Source: a virus
Strand: one strand, 5' to 3'
IMG/VR virus record: IMGVR_UViG_3300008952_001682
Coordinates: 1-21,155 of that record
DNA length: 21,155 nt
The position numbers and the translations under genes are program-made. Positions 2,288-21,155 of this stretch are shown one piece after another. A model generated the notes under the pieces. It searched no databases. It worked only from the letters and a program-made list of their open reading frames with translations, and had not been told where the DNA came from. The first letter of the stretch is position 1; every line of letters begins with the position of its first letter.

Positions 2288-2406
2288 GATTTTTAGATTT
2301 TAATAAGAATGGAAAATACGATTGGTGGGAGTATTTAATTGCTGTAGTGATTATTTGTGTTATAGAGATTGTTGCTGAGATCGTGGCAAAATCTTTGATT
2401 CCGTAG
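2284..2406 (+). CDS. 40-residue membrane peptide with EF-hand-like loop
   Basis: The ORF begins at a GTG overlapping the holin-candidate stop codon by 4 bases and ends at TAG 2404-2406. Residues 5-16 read DFNKNGKYDWWE, which fits the EF-hand loop pattern DxNxNGxxDxxE. A single hydrophobic helix follows (YLIAVVIICVIEIVAEIVA). It could be a calcium-sensing partner or regulator of the holin, or an accessory membrane protein. The last 47 bases overlap the converging GT29 gene on the other strand. Support is the coupled start, the sensible membrane topology and the motif; the GTG start and small size keep confidence moderate. Confidence 0.55.
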   Translation: MRFLDFNKNGKYDWWEYLIAVVIICVIEIVAEIVAKSLIP

Positions 2407-3172
2407 TTTTCTTAGGAATAGACCTAATTCTTCTCATACCCTTCATCCAACCTTTATACTCTATATCTGTTTCAGATAAATCACTCAAAACGTGCCAAGT
2501 AAATAATCCTTTTCTTTCTAAAAAAGACATATATTCTTGTTCAAGATCCATATCATGTGCTGAATGAGTTCTCATATATATAGGCATGTGCCAACTATGA
2601 GGATCACAATTACTTTCAGTACCTCGCTTATCCATACCTCTTTCATTAATACTTTTAGCAAAAAAATCAAATCCTATAAGAGATATACTTTTATAAGTTA
2701 TTACCTTTTCTATAAACCAAAGTATAGTTATAAATCCTGCACTAGGTCTTAAGTTTTTAAGTTTTAAAATATCTTTGTTAAAGGCTTTCATTATATCAAT
2801 TAATTCTTGATCGGTATACATTTGTTCATATTTCATACCTTCAGGTAAATGATCTTCAAAATCCCAATTCTTTAATTGTAAATTTCCTCTACATCTATTT
2901 ATTAATATCTTAGTATTTTTCCATCTACCAGATTCAAATTCTTTACGTAGTGTTTTATATACAGGTGCTCTAAATTGACCAGTAACCCATATATCACATT
3001 TCTTACCTATAGATTCTTCTTGTTTAGGTGTAGCTTCCATAGCTCTACCAAATCGTACAACAATGTCATGACTATCTATAAAATCACCATATTTATGATG
3101 CATGATTTCTACAGAATTACCTACAAATATTATTGATTTATCTTTTACTAATTCTCTAACACTTTGTACCAT
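2360..3172 (-). CDS. GT29 sialyltransferase-like glycosyltransferase, possible Kdo transferase
   Basis: This 270-residue protein carries the sialylmotifs of family GT29. Motif L is at about 13-44 (IIFVGNSVEI … DSHDIVVRFGRA). Motif S is at about 142-170 (RPSAGFITILWF … ISLIGFDFF). Motif VS is HDMDLE at 206-211, the HxxxxE catalytic signature. GT29 enzymes use CMP-sugars. Two genes upstream in the same overlapped operon encode enzymes that make CMP-Kdo, so the inferred donor is CMP-Kdo rather than CMP-sialic acid. The acceptor is unknown. No transmembrane anchor is seen, unlike Golgi members. Its 5' end overlaps the GT8-like gene by 25 bases, and its 3' end converges on the plus-strand lysis block. 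Fold is secure; substrate is inferred. Confidence 0.82.
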   Translation of the reverse strand: MVQSVRELVKDKSIIFVGNSVEIMHHKYGDFIDSHDIVVRFGRAMEATPKQEESIGKKCDIWVTGQFRAPVYKTLRKEFESGRWKNTKILINRCRGNLQLKNWDFEDHLPEGMKYEQMYTDQELIDIMKAFNKDILKLKNLRPSAGFITILWFIEKVITYKSISLIGFDFFAKSINERGMDKRGTESNCDPHSWHMPIYMRTHSAHDMDLEQEYMSFLERKGLFTWHVLSDLSETDIEYKGWMKGMRRIRSIPKKTTESKILPRSQQQSL

Positions 3173-3795
3173 TCCTCTGACAATTCTCCATTTTTACATT
3201 CTTCAAACCAAGGTCCACCTAAAGTATAATGTATTGCTTTTATTCTGTTATGCTTTTTATAATAACCTACTAAATGATTATATGATCTAGGTATTTCTGC
3301 TATTTCATTATCTTCAACCCATCTTAATTCATGTAATTCACTTGCTTGGGCTGAGTCTAAATAAGCCTTTGTCAAATGCTTTAATTTAGAACAATTAAAA
3401 ATAATCAAACTTGACCAGTTTTTTCTTGGATAAGATTTATTAGTAATACCATCCATCTTGGTTTGTTTAATATCCATATCTTCATGTTTAACTACAGCTA
3501 TAGCTTTATCACCTAAGTATTTTGTCATTTCTGTAGGATCACATTTCCATAAAAAATCATTATCACAAAACATTGCAATACCATCATAATTACACACCAT
3601 GGGTACGTAAAATCTAGTAAAAGAAAATTCTGTTGATTCTCCTGGTATATCTTCTCTACCGTAAAAGTTATATTTTTTTAAGTGTTCCTTTTCTAAAAAT
3701 GTAATATCTAAATTATCATTATAATTTTGCATTGATTTTCTACAAACTTTTGTAGCTTGTGGAAATCTTGAGTCGTGTCCTATAAATATTCTCAT
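3148..3795 (-). CDS. GT8-like glycosyltransferase (GT-A fold)
   Basis: This 215-residue protein starts with IFIGHDSRFPQA, typical of GT-A enzymes related to the GT8/LPS glycosyltransferase group. It has a metal-binding DxD motif, DND at 78-80 in the context AMFCDND. NWSSLIIFNCSKL at 126-138 resembles the strand that follows the acceptor loop. IHYTLGGPWFE at about 188-198 resembles the HxxGxxPW element contacting the nucleotide-sugar diphosphate. It should transfer a sugar from a nucleotide-sugar to a glycan or lipid acceptor in the cytoplasm. Its ATG overlaps the kdsA stop by 4 bases (ATGA), tying it to the Kdo operon. Donor and acceptor cannot be told from sequence. Confidence 0.75.
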   Translation of the reverse strand: MRIFIGHDSRFPQATKVCRKSMQNYNDNLDITFLEKEHLKKYNFYGREDIPGESTEFSFTRFYVPMVCNYDGIAMFCDNDFLWKCDPTEMTKYLGDKAIAVVKHEDMDIKQTKMDGITNKSYPRKNWSSLIIFNCSKLKHLTKAYLDSAQASELHELRWVEDNEIAEIPRSYNHLVGYYKKHNRIKAIHYTLGGPWFEECKNGELSEEWYKVLEN

Positions 3796-4562
3796 GCTAT
3801 TTGTTTTAAAATGTTTTCAAAATCTATTAAATGTATCATATTTGGTCCATCACACAAGGCGTTTTCTGGATCTGGATGGACTTCAAAGAAAAATCCATCT
3901 ACATCTACTGCATTCGCAAGCTTTGCCATGTGTATAGCATACTTCCTTTCACCACCACTTTTATCACCTAATGAACTAGGTTTTTGAGTTGAATGAGTAC
4001 AATCCATTATAACAGGATAACCAAATTCTTTCATATCTATAATTTGTCTAAAATCTACAACTAGATTACCTAATCCAAACATAGATCCTCTCTCAGTTAA
4101 CATAATATTTTTATTACCTGCTTTTTCTATTTTATTGATAGGATGCTTCATATCCTTACCGTCTAAAAATTGTGCTTTCTTTATGTTGATAGTTTTTCCA
4201 GTGTTTGCTGCTGTAGTTAACAAATCAGTTTGTCTACATAAAAAAGCTGGTATTTGTATTATATCTACAACATCAGCAACAAAAGCTGCTTGTGTTACTT
4301 GATGTATATCAGTTGTTACTTTACAACCAACAATTTCTTTTACTTTTCTTAATATTTCTAAACCATCTACTAATCCTGGTCCTCTATAAGAATCAATAGA
4401 TGTTCTATTAGCTTTATCAAATGATGATTTAAATATATAATCAAAATTATATTTATTAGCTAAGCGTTGTAATTCACCAGCTAATGTTATAGTCATCATT
4501 TCATCTTCAATGACGCAAGGTCCAGCTATCAAAATCTTGCTGCGTGTTGATTTCTTCTCCAT
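3792..4562 (-). CDS. kdsA: 3-deoxy-D-manno-octulosonate 8-phosphate synthase
   Basis: KdsA condenses phosphoenolpyruvate with D-arabinose 5-phosphate to Kdo 8-phosphate. Clear family segments are IAGPCVIED near the start, FKSSFDKANRTSIDSYRGPG, IIQIPAFLCRQTDL, LTERGSMFG, DCTHSTQ and FFFEVHPDPENALCDG. The Cys of IAGPC, the His of DCTHS, the Glu of FFEVH and the Asp of ALCD match the four metal ligands of the Aquifex-type enzyme, so this is predicted to be metal-dependent. Length (256 residues) is near normal. ATG 4562 is preferred over a TTG at 4571. The gene overlaps the end of kdsB by 56 bases, an unusually long overlap. Not a sialic-acid synthase (NeuB): the match to KdsA is continuous. Confidence 0.93.
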   Translation of the reverse strand: MEKKSTRSKILIAGPCVIEDEMMTITLAGELQRLANKYNFDYIFKSSFDKANRTSIDSYRGPGLVDGLEILRKVKEIVGCKVTTDIHQVTQAAFVADVVDIIQIPAFLCRQTDLLTTAANTGKTINIKKAQFLDGKDMKHPINKIEKAGNKNIMLTERGSMFGLGNLVVDFRQIIDMKEFGYPVIMDCTHSTQKPSSLGDKSGGERKYAIHMAKLANAVDVDGFFFEVHPDPENALCDGPNMIHLIDFENILKQIA

Positions 4563-5154
4563 TATATTCAATTTTAACTACGTCTACATCGTAGTATCCT
4601 AATATTCTATTTTGTTCTAAATTTTCTTCTGGATATTCATCATGAAATAAACTATACGATCTTAACAATTCAGGTTTGTAAGCATATATACCTACATGTC
4701 TATCTCCATATCCTATAGGAGCTCTAGTAAACCATAATGCTTTACCTTCTTGATGTATACACTTAACCCCAGCCGGGTCATATCCTTTTGTATAAGCAGT
4801 TAACATATAATTAAAACCTTGTTGACATCTATTAATAACAGATCTTAAATGCCAAATATCTATATCAACCATATCACCTTGAACATTTATTATAACATCA
4901 TACTGTTTAAGTTTATCTAATACTGATGCTATTCTAGCAGTTCCATTTTCTGCTTTTTTAGACATAATAACATTTCCTCTAGTTATATATTGAGCTATTT
5001 TTTTACTATCAGTTACAACATATGTATCATATCCCATAGTTCTAACTTTATCAAACATATATCTAATAAGAGGTTCACCATCAACATCAATAAGCATCTT
5101 CTCTTTTAATCTAGTACTTTTTAATCTTGCTGGTATTACAATACCTATGTTCAT
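4507..5154 (-). CDS. kdsB: CMP-Kdo synthetase (3-deoxy-manno-octulosonate cytidylyltransferase)
   Basis: KdsB activates Kdo with CTP to CMP-Kdo. The 215-residue product begins IGIVIPARLKSTRL (nucleotide loop) and continues with NGTARIA (for SGTER), IINVQGD, LWFTRAPIG (for YFSRAxIP), HVGIYAYKPE and LEQNRIL. It is about 30 residues shorter than E. coli KdsB. Two departures are notable: NVQGDEP reads NVQGDMV, and the C-terminal DTPEDL metal-ligand segment reads NTQQDF, so one Mg-binding Asp appears to be Asn. It could be a divergent KdsB or a related CMP-sugar synthetase, but its pairing with kdsA argues for Kdo. Its ATG overlaps the cupin stop by 4 bases. Confidence 0.85.
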   Translation of the reverse strand: MNIGIVIPARLKSTRLKEKMLIDVDGEPLIRYMFDKVRTMGYDTYVVTDSKKIAQYITRGNVIMSKKAENGTARIASVLDKLKQYDVIINVQGDMVDIDIWHLRSVINRCQQGFNYMLTAYTKGYDPAGVKCIHQEGKALWFTRAPIGYGDRHVGIYAYKPELLRSYSLFHDEYPEENLEQNRILGYYDVDVVKIEYNGEEINTQQDFDSWTLRH

Positions 5155-5496: not shown

Positions 5497-6462
5497 TTAT
5501 AAATATTTCTTTTTCCAATCAGATTTATCTCTCCATTGATATGGAAAATCTTCTTTTATTCCTTGTTCGTTATATATTTCGGGTTTCCAATTATACCATT
5601 TAGCTCTAGGATTATCCTTTTCTTTTGTTACTTTAAACTTATTTAAACTTTGTCTTTCTTTATTTTTAAAGTGTATACTAATCATTATTCTTGGTCCAAG
5701 CGTATCTACTTTATGGAATTGAAACTGTGGTATATATAATAAATCCCCAGCTTCTAAAGCAAATTTTTCTAATACTTCTTTTGGTTTATTTGGAGCAAAC
5801 TCTTTATATATTGTCCATTTTTGTCTACCTTCAGTATGAAATAAAAAGTTTTCAGTACTATCAGCATGTGCTGGAAAACTTTTAGATCCAGCTCTTGGAG
5901 AACAATATATATTAGCTTGTCCTTTATCAAAATACTTTTCAAATTCAAAACAAATATCAACTAAATCTTTTTTCTGATATTCTCCAAATGGTAATACAAA
6001 TGACTTACCATCTTTTTTCCATAAATCATAAACTTTTTGACGGTTTAACATAGGAAGTTTTAATTCTCCCTTTCTAACTTTATCAAGGCACCATCTTCCA
6101 TCACCTTCTTTTCTATAATCTAAAATTTGTAATCCTTTCATTGCAGGATACTTATTCATATACTCATTGAAATCATACCATGTAAATAGATTTTTAAATT
6201 TATTTCTTCTAATTATTAAGTGTTTTTTATTCCAATATTCTGTAAAAAATATTTTAGGACTTATTGGGTCTAATATATCTTCTAATGTTATTTTTTTCAT
6301 TTTATTCTTTTGTTTATAAGGAAACCATTTGTTTAATAGGTCTTGTCTGTATCTACAACCACAGTTTACACCAAACCAACCTGTTACTGTTATTATTAAC
6401 CATTTAATACCAGTTGTTTTAGTGAATCGTTCAAAAGTGTCTCCAAATCCTCTATCCTTCAC
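5497..6462 (-). CDS. JmjC/cupin-8 Fe(II)/2-oxoglutarate oxygenase with N-terminal fused phage domain
   Basis: The 321-residue frame has two parts. Residues 1-54 carry GFGDTFERFTKTTGIK and CGCRYRQDLLNKWFPYK, which I recall as a small stand-alone phage protein type. Residues 55-321 form a JmjC/cupin-8 domain: KKHLIIRR at 79-86, the iron motif HAD at 199-201, distal His H250 in FQFHKV, and PRIMISIHF. A Met at 55 (ATG 6300) could start the oxygenase alone, so the frame may yield a fusion or two products. JmjC enzymes hydroxylate proteins (such as ribosomal protein arginine by YcfD) or small molecules; the substrate here is unknown. The start is a GTG at 6462, overlapping the nrdA stop by 11 bases. 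Both flanks belong to one transcription unit. Confidence 0.75.
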   Translation of the reverse strand: MKDRGFGDTFERFTKTTGIKWLIITVTGWFGVNCGCRYRQDLLNKWFPYKQKNKMKKITLEDILDPISPKIFFTEYWNKKHLIIRRNKFKNLFTWYDFNEYMNKYPAMKGLQILDYRKEGDGRWCLDKVRKGELKLPMLNRQKVYDLWKKDGKSFVLPFGEYQKKDLVDICFEFEKYFDKGQANIYCSPRAGSKSFPAHADSTENFLFHTEGRQKWTIYKEFAPNKPKEVLEKFALEAGDLLYIPQFQFHKVDTLGPRIMISIHFKNKERQSLNKFKVTKEKDNPRAKWYNWKPEIYNEQGIKEDFPYQWRDKSDWKKKYL

Positions 6463-19404: not shown

Positions 19405-19423
19405 AATTTATTTATTTAATTAG

Positions 19424-19497
19424 CAGTCTAGACCGGACTCGAACCGGCGACCTCCTGCGTGACAGGCAGGCGTTCTAACCAACTGAACTACTAGACT
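19424..19497 (-). tRNA. tRNA-Asp (anticodon GTC)
   Basis: A full cloverleaf can be folded on the minus strand. The acceptor stem AGTCTAG/CTAGACT is 7 pairs. The D-arm is GTTC-loop-GAAC. The anticodon arm is CCTGC-CTGTCAC-GCAGG with anticodon GTC, and the T-arm is GCCGG-TTCGAGT-CCGGT. The discriminator base is G, as usual for tRNA-Asp. Length is 74 and no CCA is encoded, so the host must add it. Its GC-rich stems stand out in AT-rich DNA. It may supplement host tRNA-Asp or replace it if cleaved by defence nucleases. Confidence 0.95.
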
Positions 19498-19502
19498 ATT
19501 AT

Positions 19503-19587
19503 AGGTAGTGGGACCGATTTCCGGTACGCCGGGTTGCGGTCTCTTTACGTCACCATGGGATGCCCTGGTACTTGACCACCACTACCT
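19503..19587 (-). ncRNA. Unassigned structured RNA, three-way junction
   Basis: An 85-base GC-rich segment lies 5 bases upstream of the tRNA. Its ends form a 9-pair closing stem, AGGTAGTGG/CCACTACCT. Inside are two arms. One is GACCG/CGGTC (19512-19516, 19537-19541) topped by CCGG-tetraloop-CCGG. The other is GTC/GAC (19549-19551, 19574-19576) continuing into ACCA/TGGT (19552-19555, 19566-19569) and GGG/CCC (19557-19559, 19563-19565). It lacks a T-arm and anticodon arm, so it is not a normal tRNA. I could not match hammerhead, HDV, twister, hairpin ribozyme or glutamine riboswitch cores. Strand is assumed from the flanking genes. Confidence 0.6.
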
Positions 19588-19670
19588 TATTTCTTTAATA
19601 TACAATATATTAAGAGCATAAAAGCTCCAAATATAAATGTAAAAAATATCGCTTCTTGTAATATTGTCAT
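19587..19670 (-). CDS. 27-residue single-helix membrane peptide
   Basis: The ATG at 19670 overlaps the previous TGA (ATGA), and the TAA ends exactly at the structured RNA. The product is MTILQE followed by a hydrophobic helix (AIFFTFIFGAFMLLIYCIL) and KK. It is a plausible small inner-membrane peptide. The ATGA coupling to another tiny ORF and the sensible topology support it; the small size limits confidence. Confidence 0.5.
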   Translation of the reverse strand: MTILQEAIFFTFIFGAFMLLIYCILKK

Positions 19671-21064: not shown

Positions 21065-21155
21065 TTCGTTATCTCATTTATATATTCTTCCATATTTACT
21101 ATTTCTTTTGCAAGACCAAGTAAATCTCTTAATCCATTTATCTCATAAGAAGATA
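21061..21155 (-). CDS. 3' end of an unknown gene (partial)
   Basis: An open frame runs in from the right edge and ends at TGA 21061-21063, overlapping the next ATG. The 30 visible residues include YEINGLRDLLGLAKEIVNME and end in NEITK, an acidic helix. Nothing can be said of function. Confidence 0.55.
   Translation of the reverse strand, partial: SSYEINGLRDLLGLAKEIVNMEEYINEITK

Follow-up and report, generated by a model that had tools for sequence, protein, structure and literature searches.

Comparative sequence evidence for a three-way-junction phage RNA built of interchangeable parts common to related ocean phages

What is the GC-rich stretch of 85 nt that lies between a small open reading frame and a tRNA gene in an AT-rich phage genome? 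The window analysed here is the whole 21,155-nt record, a 21-kb phage fragment (any RNA cluster beyond position 21155 lies outside view) whose genes include a primase-helicase, an ATP-dependent DNA ligase, an Erf-like annealing protein, an exonuclease, a sigma-like factor, ribonucleotide reductase, and thymidylate synthase; the best relative of the primase is that of Cellulophaga phage phi10:1 (40% identity). The element (19503-19587) occurs once in the window, has a GC content of 0.58 versus 0.31 for the whole record, and folds into a three-way junction in which a 9-bp stem closes over two inner arms. Its base 1 coincides with the final stop-codon base of a 27-aa ORF (MTILQEAIFFTFIFGAFMLLIYCILKK; 19587-19670, minus strand), and similar small ORFs occupy the same place in relatives. 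On its 3' side, after a gap of 5 nt, follows a tRNA-Asp(GUC) gene (19423-19497, minus strand; called by ARAGORN, and scoring 71.4 bits with the Rfam tRNA model). A preliminary description of this DNA had pointed out the closing stem with its two paired arms, the contrast in composition, and the placement between stop codon and tRNA; all of these features are confirmed as real. It had drawn them on the plus strand, however, and the homologues show that this drawing is the reverse complement of the RNA. We assign the RNA to the minus strand because that strand encodes the neighbouring genes and the tRNA, and because every homologue shares its strand with its own tRNA-like RNAs and genes. The minus-strand fold has a predicted energy of -35.2 kcal/mol (z -3.1; 22 of 5000 dinucleotide shuffles as good) and the plus-strand fold one of -37.8 kcal/mol (z -3.4; 23 of 5000), and a minus-strand scan of 85-nt stretches at step 5 has its most stable fold in the element.

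The preliminary description could place the fold with no tRNA, ribozyme, or riboswitch core and proposed an Rfam search, which gave no confident match: no family in Rfam 15 reaches its gathering score with the element, and permissive thresholds add no credible candidate. Searching 50,697 phage records by blastn with the element, its conserved core, and the related RNA cluster stretches returned nothing, or chance and tRNA matches, and no close relative over the full 85 nt. Searches of open-access literature turned up no account of such RNAs; the main text of the 2010 structured-RNA set, which includes marine and cyanophage motifs, uses neither 'tRNA-like' nor 'three-way'. Two simple identities were discarded. 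The element has no acceptor stem and no T arm, and neither ARAGORN nor Rfam matches it to a tRNA or to the tRNA-like domain of tmRNA; a search for intrinsic terminators, as a GC-rich stem followed by a T run, yielded 0 terminator-like sites.

To find relatives, we drew related contigs from IMG/VR via neighbouring proteins and via patterns. The first matches of a covariance model built from the element alone were weak and all fell within GC-rich RNA clusters of relatives, and reading them led us to recognise a common junction, here called W, with the layout P1 - UG - P2 - GUAAAGA - P3 - no linker - P1'. In the element, all on the minus strand, P1 is formed by AGGUAGUGG (19579-19587) and CCACUACCU (19503-19511); the joining strand UG (19577-19578) leads into the P2 arm (19549-19576), a GUC/GAC base stem carrying an extended hairpin; and GUAAAGA (19542-19548) leads into the P3 arm, GACCG...CGGUC (19512-19541). 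The joining strands are exact in the element and in 12 other distinct sequences (13/13), while the stems are kept by pairing and not by sequence. Besides the element, W is found in 18 marine-phage contigs, most of which belong to the clade of the source phage; together these contigs hold 12 distinct short sequences, again not counting the element, and relatives of the source phage's proteins are encoded at many of these loci.

These relatives were reached by more than one route. A W pattern scan of IMG/VR gave 21 loci, with the full junction in 15 and coding coincidences in the other six (L098, L099, L102, L111, L114, and L118). A model of eight W sequences then recovered four more (L133, L129, L155, and L148) in loci that had been fetched by an unrelated tRNA-like pattern. 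The short W pattern had 0 matches in 84,980 bacterial and archaeal genomes. Two lesser markers were dropped: CGTAAATAGAC in L045 and L013 is actually the end of a zinc-finger gene, and the 16-mer RACGTAAAGAGACCGY is not diagnostic by itself, since random coding DNA matches it too.

E-values from the model searches are rough, and they are asymmetric. Searching 431 kb, the element-only model finds L148 (E=6.6e-4), a locus fetched by the tRNA-like pattern and not by W, and L106 (E=1.6e-3). Models built without the element rank it top in its own record, but weakly (E=0.15 and 0.095), owing to its long arms: its P2 and P3 exceed those of every other W module. For the same reason the models R2 and R3, which score the element weakly, misalign its P3 and P1'. 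Among the 12 W relatives, with the element excluded, both sides have changed in 6 of 17 pairs, and there are 17 double-change cells versus 5.4 in shuffles, none of 500 shuffles reaching the score; as the 12 short sequences are 87% identical, this covariation rests on few changes. Adding the element brings further pair types, and 16 of 16 compared pairs are intact. Most of the eight P1 pairs compared differ from the relatives' commonest pair yet still pair, the outer ones being largely replaced; the base of P2 is GUC/GAC in the element versus GGC/GCC, GGC/GCU, GGU/ACC, or AGC/GCU in relatives; and across relatives and element the first pair of P3 is G-C or U-A and the fifth G-C or A-U.

We also searched 2.86 Mb with a junction descriptor that ignores stem sequence (P1>=6, UG, P2>=3, GUAAAGA, P3>=5, no third linker). 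All 11 matches are W modules or the element itself, which is present twice, in the window and in L064, whereas 40 trials with permuted junction 7-mers gave 2 matches in sum; this control was set up after the element, L024, and L039 were known, and some loci, although not L129, L148, and L155, had been gathered by the W pattern. The preliminary description had held that a lack of compensatory changes in homologues would count against a structured RNA; such changes are present in the stems of the element relative to its relatives. Its suggestion of a new phage small RNA is supported by the same changes and by the independent relatives, L148 and L106, that the element-only model retrieves. The structure and homology of the element are well supported by these comparisons, which identify it as a real, evolutionarily constrained RNA of interchangeable parts common to related ocean phages.

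The two arms tell a similar story. Within P2, the hairpin H (ACCAGGG-CAU-CCCAUGGU, with a bulged A; 19552-19569) recurs as ACCAGGG-NNU-CCC-A-UGGU, with a different loop, in a free element of L021 and in a tRNA-like insert of L129. Within P3, the X arm (CCG-CAAC-CCGG-CGUA-CCGG-AAAU-CGG, with a 4x4 internal loop; 19513-19540) follows a pattern, CCG.AA..CGG-N4-CCG.AA..CGG, that is also found in L047, L050, L096, and L131, all of them model matches, and in L056, where the apical part is longer. In L047 the X-bearing element lies directly upstream of tRNA-Asp, the same arrangement as in the window. As both arms recur elsewhere, the element is a combination of three recurrent modules, W, H, and X. 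Separately, all three of the clade's tRNA-Asp genes that we saw have a structured element just upstream, and in L019 a closed-stem RNA of the E type described below (3080-3269) directly precedes tRNA-Asp. Several X-bearing contigs (L047:4178-4309, L050:4119-4242, L096, and L056) also share a conserved element, 'I', whose GUGGU/ACCAC and GGCAGG/CCUGCC pairings are interleaved; this order suggests an H-type pseudoknot, and G-U changes in it preserve the pairing.

Many relatives contain GC-rich non-coding stretches of roughly 300-800 nt, and these RNA clusters often begin where a 62-aa zinc-finger gene reaches its stop codon; the product of this gene is weakly DksA-like (phrog_54, E=0.022). This gene, which encodes a C4 zinc finger and ends in WRRK, was seen in L009 (gene end at 3123) and at more than 30 other loci. 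The clusters contain about 30 or more distinct tRNA-like RNAs that lack a D arm, with the layout GGGCGTG-AAATGG-[variable insert]-AAC-GCAGG-TTCGATT-CCTGC-CACGTCC-A; most have G3-U70 and A73, the alanine identity. Examples of this constant body with hypervariable inserts lie in L024 (3868-3973), L101, L129 (from 5512), L003, L126 (558-637), and more than 25 other loci. A second, internal-loop type of carrier, the E scaffold, follows the pattern GACGAGTAG.TTAAT..GG...CA..TAA.TGAAT.GCT. Judged from sequence, the W core is demonstrably swapped among three carriers: the tRNA-like body (L024, L101, L103, L104, L115, and L133), the E scaffold (L039, L108, L110, L113, L116, L117, L129, L148, and L155), and a free stem (L106 and the element). 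Inserts of the tRNA-like RNAs likewise turn up as free closed-stem elements; one highly conserved example (ACCGGCTTAACAGTAAATCG...GTACAAAGCCAG...AGCCGGT) is free in L011, L021, L022, and L024 and lies inside tRNA-like RNAs in L008 and L039. The tRNA-like pattern matched seven contigs in bacterial and archaeal genomes, two of them from one Aliivibrio MAG (L119 and L120). Both of these carry the clade's zinc-finger gene and a tRNA-like RNA, and in L120 relatives of the source phage's proteins are encoded as well. The two contigs are therefore probably of phage origin, either mis-binned or from an infecting phage.

The tRNA-like carriers share with the tRNA-like domain of tmRNA (RF00023) a 7-bp acceptor stem, a D-loop without a D-stem, a T arm, G3-U70, and A73, and in cmscan each of their two ends aligns with the tmRNA model, at 35-38 bits (E about 1e-12). 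Unlike tmRNA, they stay below its gathering score of 47, are missing about 300 nt, and receive no tmRNA call from ARAGORN; the element itself is not tRNA-like at all. The carriers may mimic tmRNA or serve as a naturally occurring tRNA scaffold. In the engineered tRNA scaffold, a foreign RNA module reportedly replaces the anticodon arm and gives recombinant RNA processing and stability; that scaffold is man-made, whereas the phage carrier lacks a D stem and looks natural and exchangeable.

What might such an RNA do? We give a probability of about one half to the reading that the element is a gene for a non-coding RNA in this clade, a W core with H and X arms, that is released together with tRNA-Asp and binds a partner in trans. 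The element would be transcribed from the minus strand together with the neighbouring genes and tRNA-Asp; maturation of the tRNA by RNase P would set its 3' end, and trimming to P1 would yield a stable product some 85-90 nt long. Its W, H, and X surfaces would then bind a protein or RNA partner through their conserved unpaired bases. The partner would most likely be a host factor, with the element as decoy or adaptor, because patchy, exchangeable modules are more to be expected in an arms race than in a part essential for assembly; the preliminary description had already suggested a host-factor binder, which we too consider possible. By analogy with the engineered scaffold, the carriers may serve mainly as processing and stability devices. 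More broadly, and more tentatively, the element could be a three-module member of an exchangeable repertoire of RNA binding modules on reusable carriers (the alanine-type, tmRNA-like D-armless tRNA body, the internal-loop scaffold, and the free stem), processed by tRNA enzymes and used against host machinery or defence, as decoys or adaptors. The earlier idea of a tRNA-like decoy does not fit the element, which has neither acceptor stem nor T arm; the W core does, however, occur inside tRNA-like RNAs of relatives.

The main rival to action in trans is a protective or spacing role in cis, in which the fold would shield the mRNA 3' end left by the RNase P cut at tRNA-Asp, or would space that cut. 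This fits the placement of the element, which starts precisely on a stop codon and leaves 5 nt to the tRNA, and it fits the closed-stem elements a few nt before tRNA-Met in L022 and L024 and the X element just before tRNA-Asp in L047. We nonetheless think it unlikely, as a mere clamp needs no strictly conserved single-stranded junction bases across carriers, and the W core is also present in tRNA-like RNAs and E scaffolds with no adjoining tRNA. Because W is found away from tRNAs in other scaffolds, we also disfavour the earlier proposal of a processing element for the tRNA. A structural or assembly RNA that acts on phage machinery, comparable to phi29 pRNA in packaging or replication or to HK022 put in antitermination in cis, would account for a compact, multi-arm fold with a conserved junction, and the small, weakly DksA-like zinc-finger gene that precedes the clusters could be counted in its favour. 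Many different modules, patchy presence, and carrier swapping are nevertheless ill-suited to an essential part, and a promoter scan, uninformative for such hosts, found no promoter close upstream; we consider this role improbable.

Decay and self-cleavage fare worse. The element's single copy in the window and the lack of a close homologue of the whole 85 nt among the phage records searched might suggest a drifting insert without present function, or a chance fold, but every compared pair in P1, P2, and P3 is intact despite many changed stem bases, and the fold has a z of about -3; pair conservation and the permuted-junction control largely refute this explanation, which we regard as very improbable. 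Theta ribozymes are HDV-like phage RNAs that cleave at the 3' end of a tRNA (PMC10879173), and the element too is a phage RNA of ribozyme size adjoining a tRNA. A self-cleaving role in tRNA maturation is hardly credible all the same, as the element lies 5' of its tRNA, its ends pair together in a plain three-way junction without the nested double pseudoknot, and no ribozyme family in Rfam matches it.

Other phage RNAs offer looser parallels. Phage T4 produces 'species 1' and 'species 2', small stable RNAs of obscure function from its tRNA cluster. Likened by description only, these resemble the element as small phage RNAs with a tRNA neighbour; to our knowledge they are not modular. Some GOLLD and ROOL RNAs also lie near tRNAs. 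Both kinds are far larger than the element, and neither matches it or the clusters in Rfam. They are large, ornate structured RNAs of phages or prophages without clear function (PMC12286853). We found no RNA family or system that joins conserved junction modules with interchangeable carriers, one type of which parallels in nature the tRNA scaffold of the laboratory. Should these RNAs bind host factors, marine phages would have in them an RNA-based equivalent of small anti-defence proteins. The alanine-type, tmRNA-like carriers also suggest a testable link to ribosome rescue.

Elsewhere in the window, genes at 2360-5154 (minus strand) match a sialyltransferase-like family (GT29), the DAHP/KDO-8-P synthase type, and a cytidylyltransferase of the KdsB type, a possible phage pathway for KDO or another surface sugar. 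A JmjC/cupin-like protein is encoded beside these sugar genes (5497-6462, minus strand).
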